Shown here: positions 867-63,700 of the stretch, one piece after another
How positions within the stretch are numbered: the stretch's first letter is position 1
Layout of the letters: each line of letters opens with the position of its first letter
Source of the DNA: Closterium sp. NIES-65
Lineage: Eukaryota > Streptophyta > Zygnematophyceae > Desmidiales > Closteriaceae
Direction of reading: 5' to 3'
Length of the DNA stretch: 64,000 nucleotides
NCBI GenBank assembly: GCA_948144175.1
Contig: CANXME010002325.1
Span: forward strand, 62,001-126,000
The notes under the pieces: model-generated
Database searches by the model: none
The model's input: only the letters and a program-made list of their open reading frames with translations
Told to the model about the DNA's origin: nothing
Made by a program: the position numbers and the translations under genes

Positions 867-3800
867 ACTTGAGCTTGTTATGAAAATTATAAAGTTAGAC
901 GACCAATTTTCTCATTGCATGCGCATGCCCTCTCCTCTCCTCCTCCCTTCTGCCCTTCCCCCTCATGGAGCCCTATCTCTCCCGCTGCTCCACACGCAAA
1001 AACCACATCAAAGGGAGCAGTGGACGATTTGGATCTGGTCATCACCACACTGCATGAGGCAGGGCTGTCAAACTCACCCAGGGGGCTCGCTTCTGTCTCA
1101 CGGCCTCCTCTCCCTCCCCTCTCAAGCGGTCCATGTATTAGCAACCAGAAAGTACAAAGCAAGCACGGGGGGATATAGCACATGGGACATACATCTCAGT
1201 TACTAACCAGGGTTTAGGGTGAAGGGAGCAGTGGACGATCTCAACCTGGTCATCACCACACTGCACGAGGCAGGCTTTTCAGACTGACTCAGGAGCTCTC
1301 TTCCTCCTCACTCCCTCCGCTCCCTCTCTTCTCTCTCCCATCTGCCTCTGTTCCTAACCCCCCCCCAGGCACCACGGTGAAGGGAGCAGTGGACGATCTC
1401 AACCTGGTCATCACCACACTGCACTGCATGAGGCAGGCTGACCGGATCACTAGTTTCTCCCCCCACGCTTGCTGCCCCCACCCTCCCCCCCCCCAGGCAC
1501 CACAGTGAAGGGAGCAGTGGACGATCTTGACCTGGCCATCACCACGCTGCACGAGGCAGGCCTGTCGGACCACCAGTTGTCCCCCCCACGTGTGCTCCCA
1601 TCACACGTGCTCAACCTGCGCTTGCTGCCCTCACCAGGCTCTCTTTCTTCCTCCCCATGGCTTGTTTCCCCTCCCTCACCACCCCCCCCCCCCCCAAGGC
1701 ACCACGGTGAAGGGAGCAGTGGATGATCTCGATTTGGCCTTTACCACACTGCACGAGGCAGGCCTGTCAGACTGGTGACCGGTTCTATACCCAGAGGCTC
1801 TCTTCCGAGTCGACTCAAAAGTCAACTTTTGAGTCGACTCAAGAGTCAACTCTGGTGACCCGTTCTATACCCAGAGGCTCTCTTCGTCCCCACGTCTTGT
1901 TTCCTCTCCCTCACCCCCCCCCCCCTCTCCACCCCCAGGAACCACGGTGAAGGGAGCAGTGGACGATTTGGATCTGGTCATCACCACACTGCACGAGGCA
2001 GGCCTGTCGGATGAGCAGTTCTACATCCACTGTGACGGAGCCCTCTTTGGCCTCATGCTGCCGTTTGTCAAGAAGGTAAGAGGCGGGCTGGGCACCGTGC
2101 AGACAGCAGGTCATGGGTGCTGCCGGTACCAGTAGCGTTCCTCCACAAGGCGGGTCCCTCAGGCGAGCAGTTCTACATCCAATGCGACGGAGCCCTCTTT
2201 GGCCTCATGCTGCCGTTTGTCAAGAAGGTACCACATGGGTAGTATGCAATCAGTAGTGCCATACGGTACAGCACGGCACTGTGTTTTGAGACGTCTCAAA
2301 CAGGTACCACATGGGTAGTATGCAATCAGTAGTGCCATACGGTACAGCACGGCAGTGTGTCTTGAGACGTCTCAAACAGGTACCACATGGGTAGTATGCA
2401 ATCAGTAGTGCCGTACGGTACAGCACGGCAGTGTGCAGGGTGTGGTATAGTGTATCAGTAGAGTCACTCCACGAGGCAGGCCTGTCGGACGAGCAGTTCT
2501 ACATCCAATGCGATGGGGCCCTCTTCGGCCTCATGCTGCCCTTTGTCAAGAAGGTACGCTCTTCCTATTATGCTCTCAGTAGTGCCATACGGTACAGCAC
2601 ATCAGTGGTGCTGGTGTGGTGTATCAGTAGAGCTTCTCTTGAGGCGTCTCAAAAGTCGTTCCTATTATGCTCTCAGTAGTGCCATACGGTACAGCACATC
2701 AGTGGTGCTGGTGTGGTGTATCAGTAGAGCTTCTCTTGAGGCGCCTCAAAAGTCGTTCCTATTATGCTCTCAGTAGTGCCATACGGTACAGCACATCAGT
2801 GGTGCTGGTGTGGTGTATCAGTAGAGCTTCTCTTGAGGCGCCTCAAAAGTCGTTCCTATTATGCTCTCAGTAGTGCCATATGGTACAGCACATCAGTGGT
2901 GCTGGTGTGGTGTATCAGTAGAGCTTCTCTTGAGGCGCCTCAAAAGTCGTTCCTATTATGCTCTCAGTAGTGCCATACAGTACAGCACGGCAGTTTGCTG
3001 GTGTGGTGTGCCAGTAGAGAGACACTCCACGAGGGGGGGCTGCCAAACAATCAGTTGTACATCCACTGAGGTGGGGTGGGGGCTACTTTGGCCTCATGCT
3101 GCCCTTCGTGAAAAAGGTAAGGTGTGGCTAGTGGCTAGTGTGTTGGGCAATCAGCAGTGCCATACAGCACATCAGTGGTGCTGGTGTGGTGTGCCAGGAG
3201 AGACACTCCACGAGGCACTCCTGTCACACGAGCAGTTCTACATCCACTGCCACGGAGCCCTCTTTGGGCTCATGCTGCCCTTCGTCAAGAAGGTACGTTG
3301 TGGCTACTGTGCTGTGCGATCAGCAGTGCCATACAGCACATCAGTGGTGCTGGTGTGGTGTGCCAGGAGAGTCACTCACACGAGGCAGGCCTGTCAGATG
3401 ACCAGTGCTACATCCACTGCGACAAGGCCCTCTTTAGCCTCATGCTGCCGTTCGTCAAGAAGGTACGCAGTGCTGAGTATGCTGTCAGTAGTGCAATGCA
3501 GCACACCAGTGTGCTGGTACCAGGAGAGTTACTGCACGAGGCAGGCCTGTCGGACGAACAGTGCTACATCCACTGTGACGGGGCTCTTTTTGGCCTCATG
3601 CTGCCCTTCGTCAAGAAGGTATGCCTTAGCAACAAATGCCTTTTCACCTTGTTTGCCTTGCACCACATGCTACTTCAACAGCACCTAACCTAACCCTCAT
3701 CCCTGGTCGTCACCCCCACAGGCCCCCTGAGTGACCTTCAAGAAGCCTATCAGCAGTGGATCAGTCTCAGGTCACGAGTTTGTCGGCTGCCCCATGCCCT

Positions 3801-5285
3801 GTGGGGTGCAACGTGTATGCATCAGTCGCATCACTCCCCTCTATCCTTCCCACCTTCTTGCCCTGCACACCTTTCGACCCACCAGGCCCCCCTTGTGACC
3901 TTCAAGAAGCCTATAGGAAGCGTGTCAGTGTCCGGTCACAAGTTCATGGGCTGTCCCATGCCCTGTGGGGTGCAGACTATTCATCAGCCTCTTTATCCTC
4001 TCCCGCTTTTAACTCCCGTATTCACCCCCCTCTCAGGCTCCCCGTGTGACTTTCAAGAAGCCTATAGGCAGCGTGTCAGTCTCCGGTCACAAGTTCGCCG
4101 GCTGCCCCATGCCCTGTGGGGTGCAATGTGTATGCATCAACCCCATCTCTCCTATCCGCATTCTTCCCTTGCACACCTTTCACCCACCAGGCCCCCAGCG
4201 TGATGTTCAATAAGCCAATCGGCAGCGTGTCAGTTTCCGGTCACAAGTTCGTGGGCTGCCCCATGCCCTGTGGGGTGCAATGTGTATGCATCAACCCCAT
4301 CTCTCCTATCCGCATTCTTCCCTTGCACACCTTTCACCCACCAGGCCCCCAGCGTGACGTTCAAGAAGCCAATCGGCAGCGTGTCAGTTTCCGGTCACAA
4401 GTTTGTGGGCTGCCCCATGCCCTGTGGGGTGCAATGTGTATGCATCAACCCCATCTCTCCTATCCGCATTCTTCCCTTGCACACCTTTCACCCACCAGGC
4501 CCCCAGCGTGACGTTCAAGAAGCCAATCGGCAGCGTGTCAGTTTCCGGTCACAAGTTCGCCGGCTGCCCCATGCCCTGTGGGGTGCAGATCATGCGACGC
4601 TGCTACCTCTCCGCTCTCTCCTCTGACGTTGAATACCTCGTCCCTCGCGCCGCTACCATCATGGCCGCAATGCCTCCACCATACCTTGATCTTGTGCACA
4701 TGCGCTCACCAGTCCCCTATATCCTGCCCCATATTTCACCCCCACCAGGCCCCTCGAGTGACCTTCAAGAAGCCAATCGGCAGCGTGTCAGTTTCCGGTC
4801 ACAAGTTCGTCGGCTGCCCCATGCCCTGTGGGGTGCAGATCATGCGACGCTGCTACCTCTCTGCTCTCTCCTCTGACATCGAATATCTCGCCTCTCGCGA
4901 TGCAACCATCATGGGCTCGCGCAACGGGCACGCACCCATCTTCCTATGGTATACCCTCAACAAAAAGGGTTACCGCGGATTCCGGAAAGACGTGCAGCGG
5001 TGCCTGCGGAACGCGCTCCACCTGCACGCGCGGCTGCGGGCGGCGGGGTTCGGCGCGATGCTGAACACTCTCAGCAGCACGGTGGTGTTTGAGAGGCCGG
5101 AGGAGGAGGCGTTTGTGAGGCGGTGGCAGCTGGCATGCCAGGGGAAGGTGGCTCATGCAGTGGTGATGCCGAGCGTGTCTCCGGAAAAGGTTGATCTGTT
5201 TGTTAGGGAGTTCGTTGCGAGTCGAGAGAGGTGCCGAGCAGCTAAGGCTGCTGCTGATGATGATGATGATGATGATGATGATGCA

Positions 5286-5320
<35 letters not shown>

Positions 5321-5633: not shown

Positions 5634-5689
5634 TGTGAACAATAATCCACAAATCGGTGTGCTTGAGTGGGGCAGGGTGCTTTGCAGCA

Positions 5690-6430: not shown

Positions 6431-7205
6431 TCATGCTTCAACAGGTTGCTGCTTCATCCTCCCGCAAAGTGCATAGTTACTTTTCGGATGAGTCACGACT
6501 GTATACAAGCCTGATGCTTTACCAATCTGGTATCCAATGATTTCCCGAGCATCTGCCTCTGCCACCGGTCCTATAACAAACGAGGACTTGAAGCTGTAGC
6601 GATTCGGCTTACCACCTCTGGCACTCGTGGTGTTCCCCCAAATGTTGCCGTCAAATGTCTCCTTGTACTTGCCGGCAAGGCAAGATTTGAAGTAGCTCAT
6701 GTGGGGCATGGCTCCTCCAGACTTGATGTTGTTGACGCGTGCGTTGATTACAACATAGCTGTCACTTTCAGAGGCCCTGTCACCGACGCAAGGGAGAAAA
6801 GGAAGGAAATTACTTTTGAGAATTCTCAAAAGAGGTTCGTGAGAAGCTGGGACCCTCCAGACTTGATGTTGTTGATTCTTGCGTTGAGCATAATGTAGCT
6901 GGCGTTTGCAGAGGCCCTGTCACCGAGGAAAGGGGAAAACGGGAGAGACAGGAGCACCACGTGTGTTGATTCAAGGATCCTCACATTATATTTGTGCGAA
7001 GACAGGAGAACAAGACACGTTTACATTCTTAGACGCGTTTAAAGCACATATTGCAACCTGTTCTTCTGCGTTGAGCTTAATTGGTTAAGGCTTAACCAGT
7101 GTCACCATTTGCAGGGCTGCACTAAAGCCAATTATGGTTTGCAAGGACTCACTTCACTCCCAGTATAATTGATAATCCAGTTGCTCCTAGGTCGCCAACT
7201 ACCGT
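6431..7205 (-). other. Possible exons of an unrecognised gene
   Basis: On the minus strand, about 6431-6800 reads GDRASESDSYVVINARVNNI, then SGGAMPHMSYFKSCLAGKYK and onward to IGYQIGKAS. A diverged second copy of its first part (GDRASANASYIMLNARINNI) lies at about 6856-6935. About 7139-7205 (VRYVAKLTPTRENGTVVGDL) ends at a GTGAGT and may be an upstream exon. I do not recognise the family. The repeated exon start upstream of the longer block follows the pattern of the confirmed genes here, which supports real coding origin. A pseudogene is equally possible. Confidence 0.35.
6715..6935 (+). repeat. Diverged tandem duplication with AATT-centred palindrome at the junction
   Basis: The two copies (about 6715-6795 and 6856-6935) both start ctccagacttgatgttgttg. 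Between them, 6814-6831 is TTTTGAGAATTCTCAAAA. Confidence 0.85.
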
Positions 7206-7252
7206 TCCATTTTCACGAGTGGGAGTGAGCTTGGCTACATATCGCACTGGAA

Positions 7253-7398: not shown

Positions 7399-7529
7399 CG
7401 CGACGTGCGTGAACGAGGCTTACTGTTGCTTCAAAGAACTTTTGAGACGTCTCAAAATTTTTGAGACGTCTTTTGAGACGTCTCAAAACGCGACGTGCGT
7501 GAACGGGGCTTACTGTTGCTTCAAAGAAC
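7399..7529 (+). repeat. 41-bp direct duplication separated by a palindrome cluster
   Basis: The copies at 7399-7439 and 7489-7529 differ at about one base. The entire interval between them is palindrome: full TTTTGAGACGTCTCAAAA at 7440-7457 and 7471-7488, and a half copy at 7459-7470. There is no other filler DNA. Confidence 0.93.
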
Positions 7530-15278: not shown

Positions 15279-15558
15279 TAGGTGTCAGCGGCACATCTCA
15301 CCTCTCCCCCATCCGCCCAGCTCTTCATCTGAGCCACTCTGAAGCTCAGAGGAGCTTTTGAGTCGACTCAAGTGCGATAAAGGCAGGGCAACAGGTATCA
15401 GCGGCATATCTCACCTCTCCCCCATCCGCCCAGCTATTCATCTGAGCCTCTCTCAAGCTCGAAGGAGCCGTGTCACGGCTTATCCCTCACAGGGTCCGCC
15501 TCTGCTATAATCACCATCATTACAATCACCACCATCATCACAATCACCATCAGCAGCA
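15279..15558 (-). repeat. Copies of the RNR1 3' end beyond its stop, with palindrome
   Basis: Two related blocks (about 15279-15355 and 15389-15469) share tctcacctctcccccatccg and a following tcatctgagcc segment. They resemble the last RNR1 exon around 15706-15790. TTTTGAGTCGACTCAA (15356-15371) lies between them. Transcribed from RNR1, this is downstream of the stop codon. Confidence 0.7.
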
Positions 15559-19200: not shown

Positions 19201-22200
19201 TGCTCTGAAGAAAGAGAGAAAGGAAGAGGGGAAGGGAAGGAGGAGAGGGGACAAAGAGAGGAATGAGAGGGAGAGGAAACAGAGGGAGAAGTATCAAGGG
19301 GAGAGCGGAGAGAGGGGAGAGGTATATTAATGGCCCATTAACCCTCTACTATCAGACCGGGGTGGAAGGTAAGGCGAGAGAAGCAGATTAAGACCGATTG
19401 AGACAAATATACTCAAAGGTAAAAAAATAGCGTGGGAGTGGGTAATGGGGAGGGGAAAGGGTAGGGAGAAGCAGCAAGGAAGAGCCGCGGAAGAAGAACT
19501 GTTTTGAGACGTAGGTAGCTGTTTTGAGACGTCTCACAACACTCCTTCCTAAAGGGTAGGGAGAAGCAGCAAGGAAGAGCCGCGGAAGAAGAACAATATG
19601 TCTACCTGATCAGGGTCTGGTGGGGGGTTAGCTGCGAGATTAGCAGAATAATCGGCGACACTTGCTGGGAAGGTTGCAGGCATGGCGGAGGCAGCAAGGC
19701 GGAAGGAGTGGGAGTGGAGGGGAAGGGCGCCTGCTCGGACGAGCAGATCGCAAGCTGCTTCTGGCGTTCTCACACAGCCGAGGAGCTGCAGGGACTGTAA
19801 GATTCAGAGGCAAAGGAATGAACGGGGGGGGATGGGCAAAGCGAAGGAAAAAGGAGACATGAAGAGGGAGTGAGAGTGCAGTAGAAGGGCTCCTGCGCGG
19901 ACGAGCAGATCACATGCTGCTTCTGGCGTTGTCACACAGCCGAGGAGTTGCAGGGACTGGGGGAGAGAGCAGAGAAGAGAAGGGGAATGCGGGAGGAACG
20001 GGCAGAGAGTGCCGGAAAGAGAGATGTGATGAAGGAGTGGAAGTGGAGTGGAAGGGCGCCCGGACGGACAAGCAGGTCACATGCTGCTTCTGGCGTTCTC
20101 ACACAGCCGAGGAGTTGCAGAGACTGTGGGAGGGAGCAGAAGGGAGAAGGGGAATGCGGGAGGAACGGGCAGAGAGGGCCGGAAAGAGAGATGTGATGAA
20201 GGAGTGGAAGTGGAGTGGAAGGGCGCCCGGACGGACAAGCAGGTCACATGCTGCTTCTGGCGTTCTCACACAGCCGAGGAGTTGCAGAGACTGTGGGAGG
20301 GAGCAGAAGGGAGAAGGGGAATGCGGGAGGAACGGGCAGAGAGGGCCGGAAAGAGAGATGAGATGAAGGAGTGGAAGTGGAGTGGAAGGGCGCCAGCACG
20401 AACGAGCAGGTCGCAGGCTGCTTTGGAGATTCCACGAGTGTCACACAGACGAGGCGTTACAAATACTGCAAACCTCACAAAAAAGGGGGATTCGGGAAGA
20501 CATGAGCATGGCCATGGGTGTGGGCACAGTGCTTTTGAGTCGACTCAAAAGCATGGCCATGGGCGTGGGAACAGGTTTGAAGAAGTGTTTTGAGACGTCT
20601 CAAAGCATGGCCATGGGCGTGGGAACAGGTTTGAAGAAGTGTTTTGAGACGTCTCAAAGCATGGCCATGGGCGTGGGAACAGGTTTGAAGAAGTGTTTTG
20701 AGACGTCTCAAAGCATGGCCATGGGCGTGGGAACAGGTTTGAAGAAGTGTTTTGAGACGTCTCAAAGCATGGCCATGGGCGTGGAAACAGGTTTGAAGAA
20801 GTGTTTTGAGACGTCTCAAAGCATGGCCATGGGCGTGGGCACAGTGCATGGGGCATGGGCATGGGCAATGGCATGGGCAGGAGCATGGCAGAAGTATGGG
20901 CATGGGCATGGGCATGCGTGCACACCCGAGACCCTCTCCCATCATCTTGCCTTCTCCGCACCCACCTCCTCAGCCAATGCTGAGTTGCCACCTGGCTTCT
21001 CCTCTGCATACTCCAACAGTGCCTGCATCCTCGCAGCCAATCCCGGGCCGCCACGTCCTCCCCCAACCCCATGCCCCTGCCGCTCCCCTTCCCCTTCCCC
21101 TCCTCCTTCACCCCCCTCCCTTGCCCTTCCTTGCTCCTCTGCCCTCTCTGCCCTCTCCGTCCCCTCTATCCTTTCTCTCCAAATTTCCGGTGTTGGTTTT
21201 TGGGCAGGAGGCATCCTTAATGCTTCTCGAACGCAGGTAACAAACTCCTCCTGCTCCGCTCGCACTGCTGCCTCCGCTGCTGCTTGCTTCCTCAGCTGCT
21301 CCACCTGTTGGGATAGGGTTGAGTTAGGGGTGAGGAATAAGGAGCAAATTCGCCTGTGAGAACAAGGGCTTTTGCCCTGAGGAGGGCAATCTCAACTCAT
21401 TGCTTCTCGAACGCAGGTCACAAACTCTTCTTGCTCCGCTCGCACTGCTGCCTCCGCTGCTGCCTGCTTCCTTAGCTGCTCCACCTGATGGGATAGGGGA
21501 GAGGAGTAAGGAACGGATCCGCATGTAAGAACAAGGGCTTTTGTCGTGAAGCCAGTGTCTCAACGTAGTGCCTCTCCTCTCCAACGCTGGGTACGAACTC
21601 CTCCTGCTCCGCTCTCACTGCTGCCGCTGCTGCCTGCTTCCTCAGCTGCTCCACCTGATGGAGTTGGGGTTGAAAAGAGCAGTGATAAACAAACCCGCTG
21701 GATCTCGCTCATTTCACTCCCCCCTCCTGCTCCCTCTGCCCTCTCTGCTCTCGCTCCTCTTGCTCCGCTCGCACTGCTGCCTCTGCTGCTGCTTGCTTCC
21801 TCAGCTGCTCCACCTGTTGGGGTGGAGAGAGGAGTAAAAAGTACATTCGCCTGTAAGGACAAGGGCTTTTGGCCTGGGCTTTAATTACAGGTAATACCCG
21901 AGCAGGGGAAGGCTCTACCTCTGACTAAAAGACTGATAATACATGCACTGATGAGCTTTACTACAAGACAAAATGATACCTGCACGGGCGGCCGCAGCTC
22001 AAAGGAGTGGGCGGCGCCGCGGACTCTCTTGAAGAAGATGCGGTCGGCAGTCAGCATTCGATGGGCGGCAAAGTGCGGCACTAGCGGATCCTCAGCCTCT
22101 CCAAAGGCGATCTGGGAGGTAGAGTAGAGAGGGCGAGGGTGAGGGAGAGGAGGAGGAGGAGGAGGAGGAGGAGGAGGAGGAGGAGGAGGAGGAGGAGGAG

Positions 22201-24785
22201 GAGGAGGAGGAGGAGGAGGAGGAGGAGGAGGATAAAGGTGACTGTGGGCTGCTTGAAGAGATATGCTTATAGCGAGTACAAGGTCAACACAAGGTTAATA
22301 CATGCTGGTTGCCTCTGCAAACTACTGCGTGGTAGTAACTGTGGGCTGCTCTGAAAGAAACATCTCCCACACCTATGCTGTTGCGACGGTGGTGGTGGCG
22401 GTGGTTACCAGGTATGATTATAGTGAGCATAAATTTAAAACAAGACGAGTGTGGGTTTACCTCTGCAAACTCCTGTGTGGTGACTGTGGGCTGCTCTGAA
22501 AGGAACATCTCCCACACCATCTCGAGGAGAGAGCCATCAGCCTGGTATTTTAGGGGACAAGCAGGGTTTAAGATCAGGGGTTTTGGGTTAAGGGTTATGA
22601 ATTGAAACTTGTCAGTGGGCAGCAAAGTGACACAGACAGCTACAAGGGAGAGCGAAAGAGAGACGGCAGAAACACAGAGTAAGACTGAAAACTGGAAAGA
22701 CTTTTGAGTCGACTCAAAAGAGAAAGAGAGACGGCAGAAACACGGAGTAAGACTGAAAACTGGAAACCGAAAAGCAACGCAAGAAGAGTTCCGAGACTTC
22801 TCTTAGCATTCTTGCTAAGATGGTGCAAAAAGGGAGTTTAGACATATAGAAACTTGGAAATTTTGCACAATAGCAGAATGTTGGGTCTCTGACCGTTAGT
22901 GAGTCAACAGATGAGAGGAAGGAGGAGAGATCGGCAGCGTTAAAGTCCTCCTCCCGTACTTCCACGAATGTCAGCTGCTGCGGCCTCACAGAGAAGGTGT
23001 TGCCGTTCTGTCATCGCTCAATGCAATGAAGTGGGGGGGGAGAATGGAAGGGGGGAGTGAGGGAGAGACGAGAGAATGAAATCCTCCTCCCCCACTTCCA
23101 CGAATGTCAGCTGCTGCGGCCTCACAGAGAAGGTGTTGCCGTTCTGTTGTGGCGCAATGTGGTGGAAAAAGGGAATGAAGTGGGGGCGGAAGTGAGGGAA
23201 AGAAGGGAGAAATTATCCTTCATCCACTTCCACAAATGTCAGTTGCTGCGGCTTCACAGAGAAAGTGCTGCAATTCTCCAGTTGAGCGGCAGAGAGGAAA
23301 GGAGGAGGAAGCAGGGGAGGAGAATGTTAAAATCTGAGACGCCTCCAAAAGTCTCTCAAGCATGGTGGAAAGGAAGGGTTGGGCGGGGGGCGGAGAAGGG
23401 GAGAAGACTGGAAGTGAAGGAAAGTGAGGAGAGGGGAAGAGAGGGGACGGAAGGCAATGCCCATTCCCATTTCTCATCTCATCAGTGTGACTCATCAGTG
23501 TGTCTCGTCAGTGTGACTATGTGACTTAGGAATTTCGGAGTTACGGATTTTGGGCTCGAGTTCTCTTAGGTAAACGACACAAGCATTCTAGTAAACCAAT
23601 CCGCATCAATTTTCTCAATTTTCGGTTCTTGATTGTCCTTTTTCGATGCATATAACGCGTACGTACCTGATCCATAACGATCCAGTTCTTCTTTCCTTCC
23701 GGTCGCATCACCACCCCCACCACGTGCCTCTGCTGCTCCTTCTCGAATTCCACCAGAGCGCCTTTCTTCACCCTCTCACCCAAAGAGCCTCCTCCGCTCT
23801 TGCCCGCTCCGCTTTTAGCCGCTGCGTTACCAGCTGCGGCCTGTACAAGCCTATTGATTTGTCTACCACCGTTACTGCTTGCTGTTCTGCTGCTACTCCC
23901 ACTGAAGGCACTGCTGCTGCCACAGCCACCACCAACACCACTACCACCACCGCCGCCGCCGCCGCCGCCGCTACCGCCGCCAGCACCTTTCCTGCAGGGA
24001 GGGCTGCTGCTCGTGAATCCAGCCGCAAAGCACCCGCTGCTGCTGTTGATGCGACCGCTGCTACTGCCGTTAAGCAACGTGGACGAATAAGTAGCACCCG
24101 GTGACGTGGCACCCGCTACAGGCGTAATCCTTCGACCTACATTTGGTTGAGCTGCAGCCGGGTGGGGAGCAGCTGAACGAGCTACAGCCGGCTGGGAAAC
24201 TAGGAATACCGTCGCGCTACAGCTCAGATCACGTTGCGCTACAGCCGGTCTGTTCCAGGCTATTCGACTAGCCTGGTCCGTGCCGGCTGTAGCCGTTCCA
24301 GCCGCTGTAGCTGTGTTAATGCCTGTAGCCGCTGTAGCGGCTGTAGCATTTCTAGTGGCTGTAGCAGCTGTAGCTGCTCTAGCATATGACGCTGCTCTCG
24401 CGGCTGAATCCGTACCAGCCGCTGTAGCTGCTCTAACGGCTGTCGCGGAATGTCTACGCGCTGAGGTTGCTGTAGCTGCCACTGCTGCGGCAGCGAGACG
24501 ATACATCGGCCCGCCGCAATCAGCGCCGGGAACCACGGCAGATCTGCCGGCTCGGACAGCCCTCGTGGGAGATCGGACGGCTCTGGCGTACGATCCGCTC
24601 CTCCTGCGGGGAGAAACGCCGCCTGCGGAGACGGAGGCGGAAGCCGCGCTGGCGCAGGGAGAGGCGGAAGCGGAAGCGGCAGAGGCGCAGGCGGAGGCGC
24701 AAGCGGAAGTGGTTGCGGAAGCGGCTGCGAGGTTGGTCCTGCTGCCGGCGAGTAGCGCTTGATGCGGCGCGACAACCGGCCTCAT
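15559..24785 (-). CDS. RNR1: Organellar RNase II/R-family 3'-5' exoribonuclease (RNR1-like), gene extent
   Basis: Plant RNR1 trims rRNA, mRNA and tRNA 3' ends in chloroplasts and mitochondria. Likely exons in gene order: 24785-23667 (Ala/Ser/Arg-rich acid-poor leader, a probable transit peptide, then GERVKKGALVEFEKEQQRHV..KKNWIVMDQ); about 23007-22897 (RPQQLTFVEVREEDFNAADL); 22541-22461 (ADGSLLEMVWEMFLSEQ); 22111-21980 (DPLVPHFAAHRMLTADRIFF); 21304-20966; 19794-19606; 18748-18345 (RNB start, TIDSYDTVEVDDGLSAE and KVWIHVADPSRW); 18142-17575 (ICPTYRLAYDQL through YVQFSSPIRRYSDLLAHYQ); 16802-16569; 15861-15559 (S1-like VGDSVDVIIAEADPARDKLR). The metal-binding acids are present, with Glu where E. 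coli RNase II has Asp207. SPIRRY, with the catalytic Arg region, is intact. Exon 2's donor is unclear. Low-complexity Ala runs interrupt the RNB domain. Confidence 0.88.
15862..16115 (-). repeat. Upstream copies of the RNR1 last-exon start
   Basis: Two partial copies (about 15915-15990 and 16035-16115) of acceptor plus METVMKMQRDVRVGDSVDVI precede, in transcription, the full exon ending at 15861. Confidence 0.85.
16250..16316 (+). repeat. (CACG)n microsatellite
   Basis: About sixteen cacg units with one tgcacg interruption, in an RNR1 intron. Confidence 0.95.
16325..16486 (-). repeat. Downstream copies of the RNR1 penultimate-exon end
   Basis: Two copies (about 16325-16365, 16444-16486) of the LALMLVEE|GT exon end and donor follow the full exon (16569-16802) in transcription order. 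Confidence 0.8.
16917..17195 (-). repeat. Upstream copies of the RNR1 exon VKALLRGEPPPLSVSDLDT
   Basis: Two copies precede the full exon: a long one (about 16917-17070, through EGAVERYWLQEFLRRL) and a short one (about 17115-17195). Both have the acceptor. Confidence 0.88.
17437..17512 (-). repeat. Downstream copy of the SPIRRYSDLLAHYQ exon end
   Basis: Repeats the last about 70 bp and donor of the exon at 17575-18142. Within the motif region it reads YVQVSSPIRRYSD. Confidence 0.88.
18810..19212 (-). repeat. Three upstream copies of the RNB-start exon
   Basis: Copies at about 18810-18902, 18974-19062 and 19124-19212 encode IRVDLTHLKVYTIDSYDTVE VDDG with acceptor. They run out just after the catalytic acids. 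The full exon is at 18345-18748. Confidence 0.9.
19457..19594 (+). repeat. 42-bp duplication with ACGT-centred palindromes between
   Basis: agggtagggagaagcagcaa blocks at 19457-19499 and 19553-19594 flank a half palindrome (19502-19512) and a decayed full one (19522-19539). Confidence 0.85.
19885..20470 (-). repeat. Four upstream copies of the RNR1 exon CVRTPEAACDLLVRAGALPL
   Basis: Copies with period about 170 bp precede, in transcription, the full exon 19606-19794. The two between 19990 and 20370 are almost identical, so some duplications are recent. Confidence 0.88.
20533..20833 (+). repeat. 54-bp minisatellite with one palindrome per unit
   Basis: The unit begins gcatggccatgggcgtggga. 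Palindromes TTTTGAGACGTCTCAAA lie at 20588, 20642, 20696, 20750 and 20804. The array opens with a TCGA-centred one at 20533-20550. Lies in an RNR1 intron. Confidence 0.95.
21398..21817 (-). repeat. Three upstream copies of the RNR1 exon VEQLRKQAAAEAAVRAEQEE
   Basis: Copies at about 21398-21487, 21575-21657 and 21765-21817 each keep the acceptor and exon start, then diverge or reach a stop. The full exon is 20966-21304. Confidence 0.88.
22142..22232 (+). repeat. (GAG/AGG)n microsatellite
   Basis: About 30 uninterrupted trinucleotides in an RNR1 intron. Confidence 0.97.
22230..22375 (-). repeat. Downstream copies of the RNR1 exon WEMFLSEQPTVTTQEFAE
   Basis: A near-complete diverged copy (about 22310-22375) and a remnant (about 22230-22260) follow the full exon 22461-22541. 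Confidence 0.75.
22650..22768 (+). repeat. 50-bp duplication with TCGA-centred palindrome
   Basis: gagagacggcagaaacacag-type blocks at 22650-22699 and about 22719-22768 flank TTTTGAGTCGACTCAAAA at 22702-22719. Right and left copies differ at a few bases only. Confidence 0.93.
23075..23285 (-). repeat. Two upstream copies of RNR1 exon 2 start
   Basis: Copies of FSVRPQQLTFVEV at about 23075-23145 and 23214-23285. The full exon ends near 23007. Confidence 0.85.
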
Positions 24786-29000: not shown

Positions 29001-29397
29001 CTTCCTTTATTCCTCCGCCAGTCCCCTGCGGCACCTCCCCTCCCTCCTGCTCTCAGCCCTGCTCTAAAGCGAGAGATTGCGGGCACGATCCGGATCACCC
29101 CTGCCATTTCGGGGATTGTCCGCCGTGTTCCTCTGCAGTGGCCAAGGAGTGTGTGGGCGGTCATGTGGTGTTGAGAGGGGTGCCGTGCGGTAGTAAGGAT
29201 ATCCGGTGCAGTAATGTGTGTGGGAAGAGGCGGCAGTGTGGGGTGCATGCTTGCTTGAAGCTGTGTCATGTGGGGCCTTGTGATGAGCCGGGACCCACTC
29301 TTCCTGCTGCGGCTGAAACTGCTGCTGCTGGTGCTGCCTCTGTAACTGCTGGTGAGGATTCTTCAGAAGGTTCTGCGAGCAAAGTGGAGCAGGAACA

Positions 29398-29433
<36 letters not shown>

Positions 29434-32715: not shown

Positions 32716-33010
32716 CATTGGAGTCTCTGGCAGCGGCAACAGCAGCACCACACGCGCCTGATTTAGGTTAAGATTCGTGCCAGTTGAAGGTTGGATCGAA
32801 CAAACGAGGGGGGGGGGGGGATAAAGGGGTGAACGGGAGGGGGAAATGCGGGTGACTTTTGAGTCGACTCAAAAGTCTCTGGCAACGGCAACACCAGCAC
32901 CACACGCGCCTGATTTAGGTTAAGATTCGTGCCAGTTGAAGGCTGGATCGAACAAACGAGGAGGGGGGGGTGGGGGGGATAAGGGGTGAAAGGAGGGGGA
33001 AATGCGGGGA
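32716..33010. repeat. About 135-bp duplication with TCGA-centred palindrome
   Basis: Copies 32716-32852 and 32875-33010 flank TTTTGAGTCGACTCAAAA at 32857-32874. The palindrome extends to 24 bp (32854-32877). On the minus strand each copy can read LNLNQARVV.LPLPE, faintly like the NFXL1 C-terminal block. Confidence 0.88.
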
Positions 33011-34055: not shown

Positions 34056-34655
34056 ACGCGCCTACGGACCGAAGCTATCAACGCGTCCGCATATTAAGTG
34101 CATACGGATCTATGTGCTCGCAGATCGGTACTACTATTGCGTCCGCAAATGGTGCTAGAGCGTCATTAGTCCGCCTGCAAATGAACGTTATTACTCGGGC
34201 CGCAACGCAACTTTTAAGATGAACGCAAAAATCGTATAGCTGGCGGTACTTACTTGAAGCTACGTGAAGCGGCGAATATTAATCTACGGCAAATATTAAC
34301 CGCGACACACACTAACCACGGTGTTAAGACTTCAATTGTGCTTAGCTCCGAGAAGGAATGCGGGATGAAAAGCAGAAAGCGGCAGTAAAGCGCGTAGCGC
34401 TTAAATCTAGCAGAGACTGAAGACCTAAAAGATAGAAACGAAGATGACAGGCGTGCATCACTGAAGTGAATGAAAGGTGTGAGGTGCCGGTCGGTAAAGA
34501 CTGGTTGGTGGATGTGCGACAGTGGACCAAATCACCCTCAATCCCTATTGCCAGAACCTCGTTCAGAGGCAGCTCAACTTCGTGGCAGCTCCACTTCTTA
34601 CAACATTCCGCACATTACGCAAACAAGAACTGCCACGTTAGATTTCTCCTAGACT
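34056..34655. other. Intergenic; no gene seen
   Basis: Normal-complexity sequence without recognisable coding or element ends. Confidence 0.5.
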
Positions 34656-37516: not shown

Positions 37517-37584
37517 CTTCCTGCCCCAGCTCCAAACCTGCGTAGCCAGCTGACAAAGACCATCCACAAGCAATTCACTCCCTG

Positions 37585-47723: not shown

Positions 47724-47735
47724 AAGATCCTTCAA

Positions 47736-51019: not shown

Positions 51020-53624
51020 TTAGGCCTCCTTTATCTCCTCTCCTGCTTCGAGATCCGATCTCGGCGATCCGACCGGCACAACGCTCGCCCGCATGGCCTC
51101 GCGCTGAAACGCCTCGAGATGCACCGAGCGTACAGTGCAATAGCGGGAGATCATCCACGCGTATTGCCGCGTGCGCATGGCAGCGAGGTAATACGCCTCC
51201 ATGAGAAGAACGGTGAAGAGGCAGAGGAGAGAGGTGGAGAGGAAGAGAGCCGAGTCGGCGACTGGGCAGGGGTCGGGGGTTTGGTTGGGGGAGAGGGAGG
51301 CGGAGGAGGGGGAGGTGGAGCGGAGGGCGTAGGTGCCGGGATGGGCGTTGTCTAGGGAGGAGACGGAGAGAGCGAGGATGGTAACACAAAGGAAGATCCT
51401 GTTTGGGGAGGTGTATGAAGGGTATTGGATATAAAAACAAAGTCAGTTGAAGGAATCTAAGGAGAGAGAAGAGATGGAGAGGACGAGGATAGTTACACAG
51501 AGGAAGATCCTGTTAAGGGAGGCGAAGGTTGAAAAGCAGAGAGTCAGGGTTAATTGAAGGAACCAAAGGTTGGGAGGAGGCGTGGAAGGTGAAGGATGAT
51601 GAAGAGAGCACGAGTATGGTGCCATAGAGGAAGACCCTTTCGAGTCGTCTTAAAACACAATACAGATTGGTGAGGAGAACAATAAGTGAAAAGTTTCTGT
51701 TCTGCCGCGTGTCGAGGTGGGAGGCATGACACCAGTGGGTTACCCTACACAGGAGAGCAAAACCCTGAGCCACCACCAGCAACAGCGCTGCTGCTGCCGC
51801 AGCAGCGTAGGCCCCCGATTGGTACAATTACAGATTGGCGAGGAGAACCACCAGCAGAGGGTTGCAATTCCTCCGCGTGTCGAAGCGGGAGGTATGGCAC
51901 CAGTGTGTGCTCACGTGCAGGACAGCGAAACCCTTTTGAGTCGACTCAAAAGTGTCGAAGCGGGAGGTATGGCACCAGTGTGTGCTCACGTGCAGGAGAG
52001 CGAAACCCTGAGCCACCACCAGCAGTAGCGCCGCTGCAGCAGCGTAGCCCCCACCCGGGTCCTCAAAAGGCACGCCTGGCAGCAGTGGGTGCCTCCGTGC
52101 AGCAGAGTGAAACCCTGAGCCACCACCAGCAGCAGCGAGGCCCCCGATTGGTAAACTCACAGGTTGGTGAGGAGAACCACGAGCAAGAGGTTGCGATTGC
52201 GCCGTGTGTCGAGGCGGGAGGCCTGGCACCAGTGGGTGCCCCCGTGCCGGAGTGCGAAGCCCTGAGCCACCACCAGCAGCAGCGCCGCTGCTGCAGCGTA
52301 GCCCCCCGAGGGGCTGCTGGGGTAGATGCAGTGCAGGGCGTTCTGCGCGTCGAGCATGTGAGTGGATGACTGCTGGTGGGGGGAAGGGGCGGGGGGGGCA
52401 ACGAAGGGGGAGATACAAAGGGGGTATATGGGAATCTAGAACGCGCTGCATTGCATCTACCCCAGCAGAGGCAACGGAGCAGATGCATTGCATTGTATAC
52501 AAAGGGGGTATATGGGGGTGCTGCTATATTGGTATGACTTTTGAGAATTCTCAAAAGTCATACCAATATGGGGGTGCTGCTGGGGTAGATGCAATGCAGC
52601 GCGTTCTGTGCGTCGAGGATGTGAGTGGCGGACTGCTGTCGGAGGGGAGAGAGAAGGGGGGGAGGCGGAAGATGGGGGAAGCGGGGCGGAGCGGGGGGGG
52701 TACATGAGGGCTGCTGGGACCGATGCAATGCAGCGCGTTCTGTGGGTCTAGCATGTGAGTGGATGACTGCTGGCAGGTGAAAGAGAGTGCGCGTTGGGGG
52801 GGGGGGGGTGGATGGGGGGAAGGAGGGGCGGAGCGGGGGAGATAGAGGGGATACAAGAGGGTTGCTGGGATAAACGCAGTGAAGGGCGTTCTGTGCGTGG
52901 AGCATGTGAGTGGCGGACTGCTGGCGGGGGTGAAGGGGAAGGGGTGGGGGAAGGGGTGGGGGAAGGGGAAGAGGGGACAGGATGGGGGAGGGAAGCGCTG
53001 TGTATTTGCAACTCGCCCCGGTGCCAAGCCGAGGGGAAATGAGTTTGCATGCCGGAGGGAGAGGGGAGCACTTTTGCAACTTGCAATGCAACTCGCCCCT
53101 CAAAGGCGACCGCAGCACTGCAACTTGCACCCGTGCATATCGGAGATGCTTTTGAGAATTTGCATTGGCGACCGGCGCAGCATTGCAACTCGCCGTGAGT
53201 GCCGAGTCGAGGGGAGCGGAGAAAGACCGTGCCTGCCCTGGCGATCGAGGGCCTAGGGAGCCATGGGGTTGCATGCGAACGAGTAGGAACGGAATCGAAC
53301 GGTAATGAACGGCTGCGAGCGGCCGCGATCGGTAAAGAACGGTAACGAACGGCTGCGATACTCTTGGCTCGCTACGCGTCTCACCTTCACCCGCATGACG
53401 TCAGCCGCTAATGTCATCGCCAGTGCAAGCCCGCCAATCACGGCGATGAGCACCACCACCCACTGCTGCGCCTTGGGCGGCGGCGATGACGCTGATGGCG
53501 ACACAGTCCCCGGTGAGGCTCGCGACGGGCTTCCGGATTCTCCGCCGTAGGATGCGGACGAAGCGGTGCCATCCTCGGTGTTGGTCGCGACTGGCTGATA
53601 GTCGTGGCGCGTTGACCAGAACAT
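51020..53624 (-). CDS. DUF1218 four-helix membrane protein (gene extent)
   Basis: DUF1218 proteins of plants are small membrane proteins, some of which modulate secondary-wall lignin or vein patterning; the biochemical role is unknown. Likely exons: 53624-53385 (MFWSTRHDYQPVATNTEDG, then TM segment WVVVLIAVIGGLALAMTLAA and DVMRVKV); about 52374-52161 (MLDAQNALHCIYPSSPSGGY AAAAALLLVVAQGFAL..GTHWC, the family's Cys-YPSSPA signature and second TM, then RRNRNLLLVVLLTNL as third TM); 51398-51020 (IFLCVTILALSVSSL completing the third TM, then ALFLSTSLLCLFTVLLMEAYYLA as fourth TM and a cytosolic tail ending EEIKEA). Junctions read GT-AG. The introns are filled with partial copies of exons 2 and 3. 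The family call rests on the Cys-YPSSP motif, helix layout and size. I could not check exon 1 homology. Confidence 0.68.
51399..51660 (-). repeat. Upstream copies of the DUF1218 last-exon start
   Basis: Copies of the RIFLCVTILVLS segment with acceptor at about 51460-51515 and 51575-51640. A decayed palindrome (TTTCGAGTCGTCTTAAAA, about 51636-51653) adjoins the second. Confidence 0.75.
51665..52140 (-). repeat. Four downstream copies of the DUF1218 exon 2 end
   Basis: Copies of YAAAAALLLVVAQGFALLH..THWCHTSRFDTRRN at about 51665-51825, 51830-51935, 51955-52050 and 52060-52140 follow the full exon in transcription order. Confidence 0.85.
51877..52009 (+). repeat. 57-bp duplication with TCGA-centred palindrome exactly between
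   Basis: Copies at 51877-51933 and 51953-52009 differ at about one base. TTTTGAGTCGACTCAAAA occupies 51934-51951, leaving one extra base. This is the clearest single example of the junction palindrome. Confidence 0.95.
52427..52608. repeat. 44-bp perfect palindrome nested in a larger inverted repeat
   Basis: 52526-52569 is perfectly self-complementary, with TTTTGAGAATTCTCAAAA (52539-52556) as its core. About 30 bp of exon 2 start appear inverted at about 52436-52467 and direct at about 52577-52608, giving a second, outer stem. Confidence 0.9.
52571..52925 (-). repeat. Three upstream copies of the DUF1218 exon 2 start
   Basis: Copies of THMLDAQNALHCIYPSSP at about 52571-52640, 52709-52772 (GPSSP variant) and 52860-52925 (YPSNP variant). 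Confidence 0.87.
53106..53193 (+). repeat. Short duplication around a half palindrome
   Basis: gcgaccgcagcactgcaact (53106 on) and gcgaccggcgcagcattgca (53169 on) flank TTTTGAGAATT (53150-53160). The right arm is lost. Confidence 0.7.
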
Positions 53625-57750: not shown

Positions 57751-57790
<40 letters not shown>

Positions 57791-60700
57791 GGGCAGGGAA
57801 GAGAGAAGGGAGGAGCAAAAGGAGGCACGTGGTAGTGAAAAGAGGGCCAAGATGCCCGAGTGGGTGGGCAGCGAGGGGGTGACCTCCCCTGCGATTGCGG
57901 CTGGGTGCGTGGCTATGTGACCTCCCCTGCTGGTTGGAATTTGCCCGTGTACCAGTCTAGGGGGTCGTACTCCCTCATGTCCCACCTGGTGAAGGCATAG
58001 GCACACGCACACATGGGAAGTGAAAAGAGAATCAACGGTGCGGGAGTCACCTCTCTTGTGTACCAGTCTAAGGGGTCATACTCCCTCATATCCCACCTGG
58101 TGAGGACACACACACATGTATGGAGAATTGAAGAGTGAACAAGATGCCTGAGTGGGCCATGGTCAGCCGATGGAAGTAGGAGGGTAGCTCATAGCAGAAA
58201 TGTGCTGCGCAAGCAGAGAGGCAGAAATGGAAGACTGACCGTTCAAGGTTGCTTTTGAGTCGACTCAAAGTCACCTTTTTAACTCGACTCAAAAGTCACC
58301 TCGCGAGCAGAGAAATAGAAATGGAAGAGTGACCGTTCAAGGTTCGCCACAGAGTAAGGTAGCATGGCAGGGTGATGGGACATGGTCAACCAATGGAAGT
58401 AGGTGAATGGGGGCTGTCAAGAGAGGACAGGTGGGCTGCAAAGGCCTTACTTCCATCAATCTCGTGTTGTACTAGACCACAGAGTAAGGCAGCATGGCAG
58501 GGTGATGGGACATGGTCAACCAATGGAAGTAGGTGAATGGATGGAGCATGGCAGAAAGGAATTGAGGAAGCAAGGCGTAGCGGGATAAAGGGAGCACGGT
58601 ATAAAGGGAAGACTGACCATTCAAGATTGGTCATAGAAGCAGGCAGCACAGCAGTCGGATGCACCATGGTCAAGCGATGAAAGAAGTCCCGAGCGCCACT
58701 CCTGGTTGCATGGAAAGAGGGGATGGGGGAAGAGGGGCGAGAGGTGTGTAAGGGAGGGGCTTGCAAGCAGCACAGCAGTCGGGTGCACCATGGTCAAGCG
58801 ATGGAAAAAGTCCCGAGCGCCACTCCTGGTAGCATAAGAAGCACAAAATTAGGTGGGGTGAAGGGGCAGGATTGGCATGAATGGGGGGCAGAGGGTCGAG
58901 AGGTATGAAGGGAGGCAGGCAGTGAAACCCGGACCCGTCCTTCCAGCAGGGGTTGCGGAATGAGGGATCGAATTCCGAAGGAGGCAGCTGGGCGAAGCAC
59001 TCTCACATAGGGTGTGCTGTAAGGCATGGTGACGTGGTGGGTGTTCCTACCTCATAGCCCCGATAACGAGGAAATAGGGCAGGCAGTGAAACCCGGACCC
59101 GTCCTTCCAGCAGGGGTTGCGAAAGGCCGGGTCGAACCCTGACTGCGGCAGCTGGGCGAACCACTCCCCTGCCACCTGCATGATCTCGCCCCTGTGGTGC
59201 TCGTTGTATATCACTGGAAACACCGCCCCTTTTCCTCCTTCTCCTGCTCCTCCTCCTCCTCCTCCTCTCTCCCCCCAACCTGCCCCTGCTGCACCTTCTC
59301 CCCCTGCTCTTCCTGCTCCGCCTCCTCCTCCTGTCTTGTCTTCCCCACTATGTACCCGCTCCCACTCTTCCTTAACCACTTGTTCCATCTCAACCACTTC
59401 CAACTCCTTGCCGCGCTCCGCCCGCCCGAAAACAAGCCCGTGGTGCGACCCTGCTGCTACAGTGTCCACGTGCAGACAAGCCAGGCCGCCCACGAGGCCG
59501 GGAAGCGGGTCGGCGGAGTTTGACGTTGGGCGGCCAAGCTGATGGTAGTTGTTGTGACCCCACGAAAAGACCTGTCCAGTGCTGGTCCGGGCGAGCACAA
59601 ACGACGCACCCCCCACCACCTGCACCACCCCACCCAACCGCAATCCCCCGTCCCCCTCCTCCTCCTCTCCCATCACCTCACTCGGCTCTTCCGCTGCTCC
59701 CCCTGTTCGCCCCAGTAACACAGATCCTGCTGCTGCTGCCGCTCCTCCTCCTGCTGCTGCTGCTGCTGCTGCTAGTCCTCGTTTCCCCCCACCATAGCCC
59801 CACGACAGAAGCTGCTGCGAGGATGCCATGACAGCAAAAGATGCGCCTGCTGCTGCTCCGATGGTTGATGCACGCTCGGAAGACAAGGGACCGGAGGTGA
59901 TGCGGTGGGGGAGGGCAAAGCGGGAGTGGGAGGAGTGGGCTAGAAGAGGCGCGTGGATGGCCGGATTGACTCGAATGCCACTTGCATTGAAACCGGTGCT
60001 GGTAGGGGGGAGGAAATGGGGTGGAAAGGGGAAGAGAAGGCGTATAAGAAAGTACATTCATTATTGCAAGGGACGCACCTGCCTGCTGCTGCTCCAATGG
60101 TTGATGCATGCTCGGAAAACAAGGGACCGGCGGTGATGCGGTGGGGGAGGGAGAAGCGGGTGTGGGAGGAGGAGGAGGAGGGAGAGGGGACGGGGTGGGC
60201 TAGAAGAGGCGCGTGGAGGGCCTTATTGACTCGAACGCCACTTGCGTTGAAACCAGTGCTGCAGAGGGGAGGGAAGGAGGTGGGAATGAAGAAAGGGGAA
60301 GTAAGGAAAGGAGATGGGGTGGGCTAGAAGGGGGGCGTGGAGGGCAGGATTGACTCGAACGCCACTGGCGTTGAAACCGGTGCTGCAAGCAGGAGAAGAG
60401 AGGGTGGACGGAAGGAAACGGGGCAGGAGCACAAAAAGAGTTTTGAGCTTAGACAAGGCAAAGGACGCGCTTGCTGCCCCTCCAATGGTTGATGCACGCT
60501 CGGAAGACAAGGGACTGGCTGTAATGCGGTGGGGGAGGGAGAAGCGGGTGTGGGAGGAGGAGGAAGAGGAGGAGGAAGAGGGAGGGGGGATGGGGTGGGC
60601 TAGAAGGGGGGCGTGGAGGGCCGGATTGACTCGAACGCCACTGGCATTGAAACCGGTGTTGCAGAGGGGAGAAGAGCGGGTGGTGGAAGTCAGCGGCAGG

Positions 60701-63700
60701 CAGAGAGTACTTTTGAGTCGAGCGAGACGATGGAAAGTCACCTGAGGAAAGACAGCGGCACCTTTTGAGGCGCCTCAAAAGACGATGGAAAGTCAGCGGC
60801 AGGCAGAGAGTACTTTTGAGTCGAGCGAGACGATGGAAAGTCAGCGGCACCTACTCACCTGAGGGCCCCTCCCCTCTCACCTGAGGGCACCTACTCACCT
60901 GAGGGCACCTACTCACCTGAGGGCACCTACTCACCTGAGGGCACCTACTCACCTGAGGGCACCTACTCACCTGAGGGCCCCTACTCACCTGAGGGCACCT
61001 ACTCACCTGAGGGCCCCTCCCCTCTCACCTGAGGGCCCCCTCTCAAATGGTCCGTTGTATTAATTCAGCAGGGGTACAGACAGGGCCCCCTCTCCCTCTC
61101 CCTCTCCCTCTCCCTCTCCCTCTCCCTCTCCCTCTCCATCATCCTTCCCACCTCTCCCTCTGTCTGCTTCTCAACACGCCATACTCGAGCTTTGAGATGT
61201 GCGTGCTTCGACCCTCGTCTCCTCTCGTCTCCTCTCCCTCACCTGCACGCGTACACGTGGCCTTTATCAGTGACCGCCAGCCAGTGCTCCTCCCCTGCTG
61301 CTATCTTCTTACTTGCATCGCCTGCCCTCCTCCCTCGTACCCTCTAAAATGTGCCTCACCTGCATTGCATGCGTACACGTGGCCTTTATCTGTGAGCGCC
61401 AGCCAGTGCTCCTCCCCTGCTGCTACCTCCACCACCCTCTCCCCCTCCAACGCCCTTCCCACCCTCCCCCCTGTCTGCTTCTCAAAACCCCGTGTTCTCC
61501 CACCCATGTTCTCTCACCTGCATGCGTACACAAGGCCTTTATCTGTGAGCGCCAGCCAGTGCTCCTCCCCTGCTGCTATCTCCACCACACTCTCCCCCTC
61601 CAACGCCCCTCCCACCCTCCTTGGTTCTGCTGCCAGTGCCAGTGCTGCTGCTAGTTCCTTCTCTAATCCACCGCTGGTGCTGGTGCTGCTGCCGGCGCTG
61701 CCAGCGGCAACAACAGCAGCAGCAGCAGCAGCAGCAGAAGAAGAAGCAGCAGTAGGAGTATGGCAGAGGTCATGGTGGTGGGTCCAGGGAGCAGGGAGCG
61801 AGAAGAGGTTGAGGCCCCAGGTGAAGACTTGCCCCCCGGCAGAGAGCGCGAGGGAGTAGTGCGGCCCTGCTGCTGCCGCCACCACCACCACGTTTTCTAG
61901 TGCCCCCCTCACTGGTGCCGCCTCATGCCTGTCGCCCTGGGAGGTGGAGGAGGGAGAGGGAGGGGAAGAGATAAGAGGTTGAAGCTCCGGGGTGTAGAGC
62001 TGACCACTGGAAGAGAGGGCAAGAGGGCGAGGGAGTAGTGCGGCCCTGCTGCTGCCGCCACCACCACCACGTTTTCCAGTGGCCCCCTCACTGGCGCCGC
62101 CTTGTGCCTGTCGCCCTGGAAGGTAGGAGGAGGGAAAACGGAGAGGGCAGACATTAGGACCCCCAGGTGAAAGGGTATGATCCCTGGAAGAGGGGGCAAA
62201 AGGGCGAGATAGGGTAGCCCTCAACCTATTTCGCATAACTTTTACCATGCTCCTTGACTGCCAGCCCAGCTGTCCCCGCCCATCGCACCCCCATGTGTAC
62301 ACCACCCCTCCTTTGTCACGGCTAGGGCAGATCTGAGTAAACTCAAACGTCAACCTACACTCCCTCACACCATTCAAAACCGCTTACCATGCTCCTCGTC
62401 TGTCTCCCCAGCTGGCCCCTCCCATTACACCCCCACGTGTACACCACCCCCTCTTCAGTCACTGCCACCGAATGAAACTTCCCAGCAGCGACCGCCCTCA
62501 CTCTCCCCGCCACTCCCGCCACCCTCCCAGGCCTCCCAAACGGCCCCTTCCGCCCCAGCTGCCCCGCTTTCCGCCGCCTACTGTCCCAGTTTCGGCCGAA
62601 TGAGTAGAGTGCTCCGTCTACTGTCACTGCTAGCGTGTGCCCCGATGCTGCCACGGCTTTCACCCCCTTGCGCCCCAGAACCCCCCCTGCTCTGTGTGAG
62701 CCTGGGGGAAACGGATCAGCAGCACCCTTCTCTGCTTCCACTGCTCCCATCTTCTCTCCCATAGCAGCAGCGTCTGCTGCTCGCCTGCCTGCTTCCACCA
62801 CAGGCCAAGCGGCCCTGTCCTCCTCTCCCCACCCCATGCGGTAGCTCAGGTCCCCCCCTGCCCACCCAAACAGGTAACCTGCCTTTTGAGCCGCCACAGC
62901 GCCAGTACCACTTCCTCCTTTCCCTCCCGGGGATCCGGCATAGCGCCATGCTGGCTGAGAGAAGGCTGCTGCTTCGTCTCCTGCCATTGCTGCTGCTGCT
63001 GCTGCCTCTGCTGCAGCTGCGCTTGCTGCTGCTGCCTCTGCTGCTGCTGCGTTTGCTGCTGCCACCTCTGCCGCCGCCCGTTCTGCCGCTATAGCTGTCT
63101 CAGCTGCTGCTGCTGACTGTGTCTCTGCTGCTGCAGCTGTTACAGCATCGGCCTCTCCTGCTACAGCCGCCTGTGCTGCTGCTCCGACCACTACATCCGG
63201 ATCTGCTCCAGCATCTGCCTGAGACGGCGTGAAAGGAACGGTTGATGCGATTGCTGCACGTGGGGGATAAGAATGGGAAAGTGGAAACAAGTTTGGGACG
63301 TCTCAGAACCTGTTGAATGTCTCAGCAATTTGAGACATCTCAAAGCTTCTGCCTGGGACGGTGTGAAAGGAACAATCGATGATGTGCCTGCTGCAACAGG
63401 GTGAGAAACAATGGTAAAGTGAAAGCAACAGAACCTTTGATTGAGATTGGATTTGCCTTGAAACGCCACAGACCACCAATCACCCGCTCCAATCTGGCAT
63501 CTTACCGCTGCTTAGATTGCCCTTTGGCAGCAGAAGAACCACCTAGGCCAGCAGGAGCAAGGCGAGCAAGCCCACCAGCACGTCACAGACCACCCCCGCT
63601 CCATTCTGGCATCTTACCGCTGCTGCTTTTGGGAAGCAGAAGAGTCACGGAGGCCACCAGAAGCAAGGCTATCAAGCCCACCAGCACGTCACCAATCACC

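Follow-up and report, generated by a model that had tools for sequence, protein, structure and literature searches.

Filler-bearing tandem duplications left by DNA repair and tiny, mobile-like palindromes of organelles are both already known. Small tandem duplications arising from break fill-in and end joining are said to have been described in rice by Vaughn and Bennetzen in 2014. In mouse embryonic stem cells, fill-in of complementary overhangs and subsequent end joining give rise to small tandem duplications (PMC5730883 and PMC8355091), and the palindromic repeats of Volvox carteri are mainly organellar stem-loops with loops of 3 to 5 nt that are held inert in the nucleus (PMC2670323). Here, we describe a palindrome family, TTTTGAGN4CTCAAAA, in a 64,000-nucleotide stretch of the desmid Closterium sp. 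NIES-65 (the window; G000:C2027:62001-126000), where most members sit between the two copies of a locally duplicated sequence (D).

Miniature inverted-repeat transposable elements (MITEs) are high-copy short inverted repeats with fixed short target duplications and conserved outer-end inverted repeats, and the repetitive extragenic palindromes and bacterial interspersed mosaic elements (REP/BIME) are intergenic palindromes of ~20 bp that are linked to RAYT proteins and lack long duplications. The Closterium family resembles the former in being a high-copy short inverted repeat, but its inner core is conserved while its outer ends vary; it resembles the latter in being ~20-bp palindromes in intergenic DNA, but REP/BIME are bacterial, RAYT linked, and without long duplications. 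The core is symmetric, with no one-sided 3′ tail or defined orientation of the kind seen in short and long interspersed elements (SINEs and LINEs). A variable target duplication is shared with SINE/LINE retroposons; the fixed length typical of DNA transposons and MITEs was not found. The end-joining products resemble those here in that nearby sequence is directly duplicated over tens of bp, without a fixed length and sometimes with inserts (PMC5730883, PMC8355091); unlike in those, the insert here is one specific palindrome family in very many places. The Volvox repeats are likewise short, dispersed, noncoding palindromes inserted into one another, but the Closterium copies lie on contigs with intron-bearing genes, are loopless, and have long flanking duplications (PMC2670323). 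The GC clusters of yeast mitochondria are similar in that tiny palindromes act as mobile DNA, vary in copy number, and merge; they differ in being mitochondrial, with 2- to 3-bp flanking repeats (AG or ACT) and a main cluster of 42 nt (PMC4478555). Open-licence literature listings (queried for Closterium, Zygnematophyceae, palindromic mobile elements, and sequence strings, with subscription papers outside the search) held no report of a palindrome of such copy number at duplication junctions.

Copy number, centres, and arms

A search of the whole assembly (874,075,685 bp in 2400 contigs), as the initial annotation had proposed, returned 30,327 exact copies of TTTTGAGN4CTCAAAA versus 4 for the reversed control. 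Four centres made up 26,579 of these (87.6%): TCGA (13,080), GCGC (5,851), ACGT (5,047), and AATT (2,601), each with 0 matches to its own reversed control; the remaining 3,748 were counted as one lot. In the window, 34 matches were found at 3 or fewer mismatches against 2.89 expected and a maximum of 8 in 100 shuffles, a few of those with 3 mismatches being probably due to chance. The family first recognized in the window is thus real, and every site listed for it exists. The roughly 30 copies counted there are also present but represent fewer independent events, because 2284-2360, 2637-2928, and 20588-20804 are tandem arrays.

Finer analyses used a 264-kb sample composed of the 64-kb window, 100 kb of the same contig, and 100 kb of contigs C6, C9, and C10. 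The latter stretches were picked around listed palindromes, so that the sample is not random and has an exact-copy density about nine times the genome mean; four further stretches outside it (37.5 kb in total), picked without regard to palindromes, contained no copies. Within the sample, palindrome loci showed no local clustering above random. Its 80 exact copies comprised 31 TCGA, 14 GCGC, 11 ACGT, 18 AATT, and 6 others, each of the 6 being one base from a main centre and 4 of them consistent with CpG decay. The sample held 131 perfect palindromes with a length of 14 bp or more, and 103 of them belonged to the family, with the four named centres only; these palindromes, like that at 52526-52569, have no noncomplementary loop.

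The arms were earlier taken to be fixed around a variable self-complementary centre. The four centres bear this out in part, with only two centre bases being independent (GA, GT, GC, or TT before CTCAAAA) because the copies are palindromes; the arms, however, frequently extend beyond 7 bp and are trimmed unequally on the two sides. In the TCGA class, 17 of 23 nonempty outer arms were cut-backs (C, AC, GAC, TGAC, and so on) of GGTGAC/GTTGAC or a near relative, two of the 17 being a single C, and arms were unequal left versus right. Long arms of other sequence also occurred (at C2027a 39142 and 52526-52569, 13 bp without mismatch; at C6e 5291, 16 bp with a single mismatch). Some inserts consist of a bare palindrome (51934-51951) or of palindromes alone (7440-7488), others carry arm bases, and a single insert may hold two or three palindromes, mixed classes, or half copies. 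Seven half copies with a centre were identified in the sample, several in or adjoining palindrome inserts; some stop after N4 (19502, 53150, and 60711/60814), and one (C6d 7507) has its AAAA supplied by D. An Rfam scan of the window gave 0 matches at the gathering score.

Duplications, decay in step, and empty sites

Under a lenient rule, a direct repeat was present on both sides of 23 of 25 palindrome clusters in the window, including 7399-7529, 22654-22766, 32723-33009, 51877-52009, and 58208-58344, where duplications had been noted earlier. The initial annotation's claim that this is so in almost every case is therefore sound for the window and weaker in the 264-kb sample, where the rule was satisfied by 99 of 124 clusters and, among single loci, by 41 of 54 versus 311 of 1500 random points (21%). 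The corresponding counts were 36/54 versus 262/1500 under an intermediate, stricter score and 26/54 versus 248/1500 (17%) under the strictest. For 43 isolated loci, selected for having D and with arrays and neighbouring loci left out, D ranged from 16 to 237 bp (median, 44) and the insert from 17 to 75 bp; the 237-bp case is doubtful (73% identity), and all others fell between 16 and 130 bp. Since these lengths are continuous, there is no fixed-length target duplication. Among 20 positions examined for a cut-site consensus, the only preference detected was a weak one for T as the first base outside the insert (23 of 56). Palindrome arrays reach 11 or more units.

Junctions of the form D-X-D also occur with other fillers: under one filter, 45 lacked a palindrome (X of 19 to 90 bp) and 26 had one. 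None of the 45 palindrome-free X sequences was self-inverted, and 3 resembled the outer flank. Gaps of 3 to 16 bp between direct repeats were nearly absent from the 264 kb (0 for repeats of at least 25 bp and 88% identity; 1 in another scan); gaps of more than 17 bp were common, palindrome or not.

Palindrome and D appear to be of the same age. The mismatches expected in a palindrome that arose in one event with its D amount to half of the D divergence times 18, and the loci scored had at most 2 mismatches outside the centre positions and a centre within one base. At D identities of 0.97 or more (12 loci), 1 palindrome mismatch was found against 1.0 expected; at 0.90 to 0.97 (17 loci), 10 against 8.7; and below 0.90 (14 loci), 14 against 19.1, a count lowered because palindromes too decayed to recognize drop out. 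Over all 43 loci, 25 mismatches were found versus 28.8 expected (rank correlation rho, -0.44; permutation p, 0.0012). Palindrome decay thus follows D divergence, and for recognizable copies the two therefore probably arose together in one event, as judged from sequence.

Empty sites were found in several settings. The window region has a second copy on contig C1969, 95 to 99.9% identical where read. The window's TCGA palindrome and five-fold ACGT array at 20533-20821 are missing from C1969, which there, at 97 to 99% identity, has one GCATGGCCATGGGCGTGGGCACAGTGC and no palindrome, and in the array at 2637 it has 3 palindromes versus 4 in the window. Eleven window loci lying within continuous alignment are shared with C1969 (1803, 2284/2360, 6814, 7440, 15356, 19522, 22702, 32857, 58253, 60763, and 63328); the loci at 51638, 51934, and 52539 were outside the comparison. 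The 97-bp array at 2562-3019 has three sister introns among the duplicated exons of the serine decarboxylase gene (read from 3113, 3291, and 3463), each with a single unit and without a palindrome. From coordinate offsets, C1969 is also ~7 kb shorter than the window somewhere in 33773-57999.

A different kind of insertion was seen at C6:112012, where the palindrome sits inside a dispersed repeat of ~400 bp; the earlier observation that copies do not lie inside other elements is thus not general. The filled copy reads GCC-TGTTTTGAGACGTCTCAAAACA-CCTACC, versus GCC (one GGC)-AGA-CCTACC in four other fetched copies, from all of which the palindrome is absent: a 21- to 22-bp insert stands in place of 2 to 3 bp, with no duplication. 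At least 33 repeat copies were listed, leaving out near-identical segments on contigs C1658 and C347, and each was 16 to 25 bases shorter over the match than the C6:112012 copy. Insertion can thus take place without duplication, at the cost of 2 to 3 bp. Near-identical duplicated segments are present in the assembly; C6:106500-113500 has copies of 97 to 99% identity on C1658 and C347, and on each of these ~420 query bases are matched a second time, suggestive of a tandem duplication at that place.

The loci of the window are as follows.

1772..1885: D of 34 bp, a 46-bp insert of two TCGA palindromes with GTCAAC spacers, and D
2226..2435: 76-bp array of a duplicated intron start, with an ACGT palindrome at each junction (2284-2301, 2360-2377)
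2562..3019: 97-bp array; GCGC palindromes lie at 2734, 2831, and 2928, and a decayed one (GCGT) at 2637
6814..6831: AATT palindrome between diverged repeats of ~87 bp (83%)
7399..7529: D of 41 bp, a 49-bp insert (ACGT palindrome, half copy, ACGT palindrome), and D
15280..15468: 76-bp repeats (91%) around a TCGA palindrome, 15356-15373, with a decayed right end
19456..19594: D of 44 bp (100%), a 51-bp insert (half ACGT copy, then ACGT palindrome), and D
20506..20847: TCGA palindrome (20533-20550) followed by five ACGT palindromes in a 54-bp array (20588-20821)
22654..22766: D of 45 bp (98%), GAC plus TCGA palindrome plus GA, and D
32723..33009: D of 130 bp (95%), TGAC plus TCGA palindrome, and D
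51638..51655: decayed palindrome with TCGT centre; flanking repeats not found
51877..52009: D of 58 bp (98%), a bare TCGA palindrome, and D
52526..52569: perfect palindrome of 44 bp, AATT at its core, between 16-bp repeats
58208..58344: D of 43 bp (88%), two TCGA units with a GTCACC spacer, and D
60687..60849: GCGC palindrome at 60763-60780 in a nested duplication, with half copies TTTTGAGTCGA at 60711 and 60814
63291..63345: decayed ACGT-type copies; repeats of ~77 bp (79%) by one scan, none by the lenient cluster rule

Possible routes of insertion

With about even confidence, we read the palindromes as fillers joined into chromosome breaks. The donor would be a short palindromic DNA, either double-stranded or folded as a hairpin, whose core TTTTGAGN4CTCAAAA is constant and whose outer arms differ by class; end joining would capture it as the ends of a double-strand break are united. 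Where offset nicks or other complementary overhangs of about 16 to 130 nt were present, a polymerase would fill both before joining and so leave the overhang sequence on each side (D-palindrome-D); nearly blunt ends would instead take up the palindrome without D, losing a little sequence. A D-palindrome-D dimer could then give rise to a minisatellite array via slippage or unequal exchange. The sequence itself shows the structure, the copy number, the four main centres, the decay in step, and empty sites both with and without duplication; from these we infer a break, its fill-in, a joining pathway, and a free palindromic donor. Filler at staggered breaks with long overhangs was one of four meanings offered by the initial annotation and is the one that fits best: end joining with filled-in overhangs is favoured by the continuous D lengths, the lack of a clear cut-site consensus, and the decay in step, as well as by the one insertion without D and with small loss, the frayed arms, and the other fillers at like junctions.

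Several points weigh against this interpretation. Neither a donor molecule nor a parent element was found for the one palindrome, with its four main centres, that supplies so many fillers. Ordinary capture should use many DNAs, yet one family fills 28 of the 72 junctions with gaps of 17 to 60 bp in the palindrome-rich sample. D was absent at 13 of 54 single loci under the lenient rule. The preference for T as the first outside base could point to primed synthesis, and the clock test takes in still-recognizable palindromes only. The empty site in C1969 could have arisen later, if recombination between the D copies collapsed a filled site, and the 11 other window loci are common to both genome copies.

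An unlikely alternative is that both 3′ ends of a staggered break were tailed with the 11-nt TTTTGAG-N4, templated by RNA through a telomerase- or reverse-transcriptase-like activity, and that the N4 tails annealed and were filled in, leaving a palindrome between D copies. Tailing would account for the constant arms with a self-complementary 4-nt centre, the unequal arm starts on the two sides, the half copies ending after N4, and T as the first outside base; it would require four templates all ending in self-complementary 4-mers and does not predict the long arms beyond the core, and half copies are few, that at C6d 7507 owing part of its sequence to D. Target-primed reverse transcription, in which a LINE-type enzyme would nick the strands at variable offsets (giving D) and copy short hairpin RNAs, we consider somewhat less probable again. 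The variable duplication length, the AAAA at the insert end, and a reverse transcriptase frame in the window (11006-12712) agree with it, but the inserts are symmetric, with TTTT at the opposite end, no clear nick consensus was seen, insertion without duplication occurs, and no flanking direct repeats were among those listed for the window LINE. Cut-and-paste transposases make fixed short duplications. A transposase moving the palindrome as a minimal transposon by cutting the target strands far apart would suit the high copy number of a specific sequence and the dimer-like TTTTGAG half-sites, conserved while the centre and outer arms vary; this model is improbable, the duplications here being 16 to 130 bp or absent and half copies few (seven with a centre in 264 kb, with paired half-sites around internal sequence outside any systematic search). 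Both the reverse-transcription and the transposase models fail one tested defining feature.

Palindromes are fragile sites, and a palindrome that came first could, as a hairpin, have set off slippage or breakage and so led to duplication of the adjoining sequence. Arrays containing palindromes are indeed common, and this explanation may apply to later array growth; as a general account, or as the binding site triggering duplication that was proposed earlier, it is quite improbable, because a single palindrome stands between two D copies and was not duplicated along with D, the palindrome has decayed in parallel with D, and empty copies (the C1969 site in a near-identical region, and the sister introns) lack both. 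An assembly, linker, or library artefact, such as gap joining in which a spacer between overlapping contig ends imitates D-linker-D, can be practically dismissed given the number of exact copies, a decay matching D divergence in repeats diverged by up to ~20%, the arrays of 11 or more units, the identical sites in two separately assembled copies at 95 to 99.9% identity, and the insertion into a single copy of a dispersed repeat.

Of the four earlier meanings, the tiny mobile hairpin stays a candidate alongside the filler, because a specific sequence dispersed so widely needs a source. Several further sources and routes were considered and set aside. For a larger transposon with half-palindrome ends, the 264 kb offered only the seven half copies with a centre, paired half-sites not having been searched. 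Nor was a viral or prokaryotic source supported: among 26 matched stretches of viral contigs, 5 had a self-complementary centre, flanking duplications being outside that test; the TCGA 18-mer had 4 matches in 257 billion bases of genome contigs, about chance level by estimate; and plasmids gave one weak match. Two-tail annealing was likewise not adopted, the half copies being suggestive and one of them partly explained by D.

Neighbouring features and implications

The window begins with a serine decarboxylase-like gene (1-5640) containing many tandem partial exon/intron copies, variously diverged. The 54-bp palindrome array within 20382-21359 is open in one frame (KKCFETSQSMAMGVGTGL repeats), and palindrome arrays could therefore add repeats to protein. 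Open reading frame (ORF) 25925-31294 encodes an NFXL1-type zinc-finger protein (Pfam); the best among the matches listed (at least 120) was CLOM_g16455 of Closterium sp. NIES-68 (883/1277 aligned positions, 69%), the others listed being at about 34 to 43% and from land plants where named. ORF 46725-47735, a candidate hAT element, had no match in a Pfam search. The target duplications of long terminal repeat (LTR) elements are far shorter than 71 bp; at 34653-37584, 71-bp direct repeats (97%) enclose 2.8 kb that include a copia-type gag frame on the minus strand (35055-35894), an arrangement that may be another break-capture event. A second palindrome family, about 44 bp long around CCTGTTCGGTTCGCCTCGAACRTGTTCGAGGCGAACCGAACAGG, was observed at L049:3472-3551 and L040 (about 506-640), with at least 20 or so further places at 95 to 99% identity among the matches listed.

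If the palindromes are fillers joined into breaks, they would raise the question of how a high-copy palindrome without a known coding parent originates. One tentative answer is that it is a minimal mobile DNA without an enzyme of its own, spread by host break repair and supplied in its four classes either by an end-tailing reaction or by free palindromic (or hairpin) DNA that replicates; each insertion would duplicate up to ~130 bp of host DNA and so might drive minisatellite birth and intron growth in this lineage. A genome from the algal class closest to land plants would then have taken up an 18-bp palindrome tens of thousands of times via break repair, leaving datable, sequence-tagged repair events in great number, from which one could read how the breaks were built (overhang length), how they were joined, and how arrays arose.

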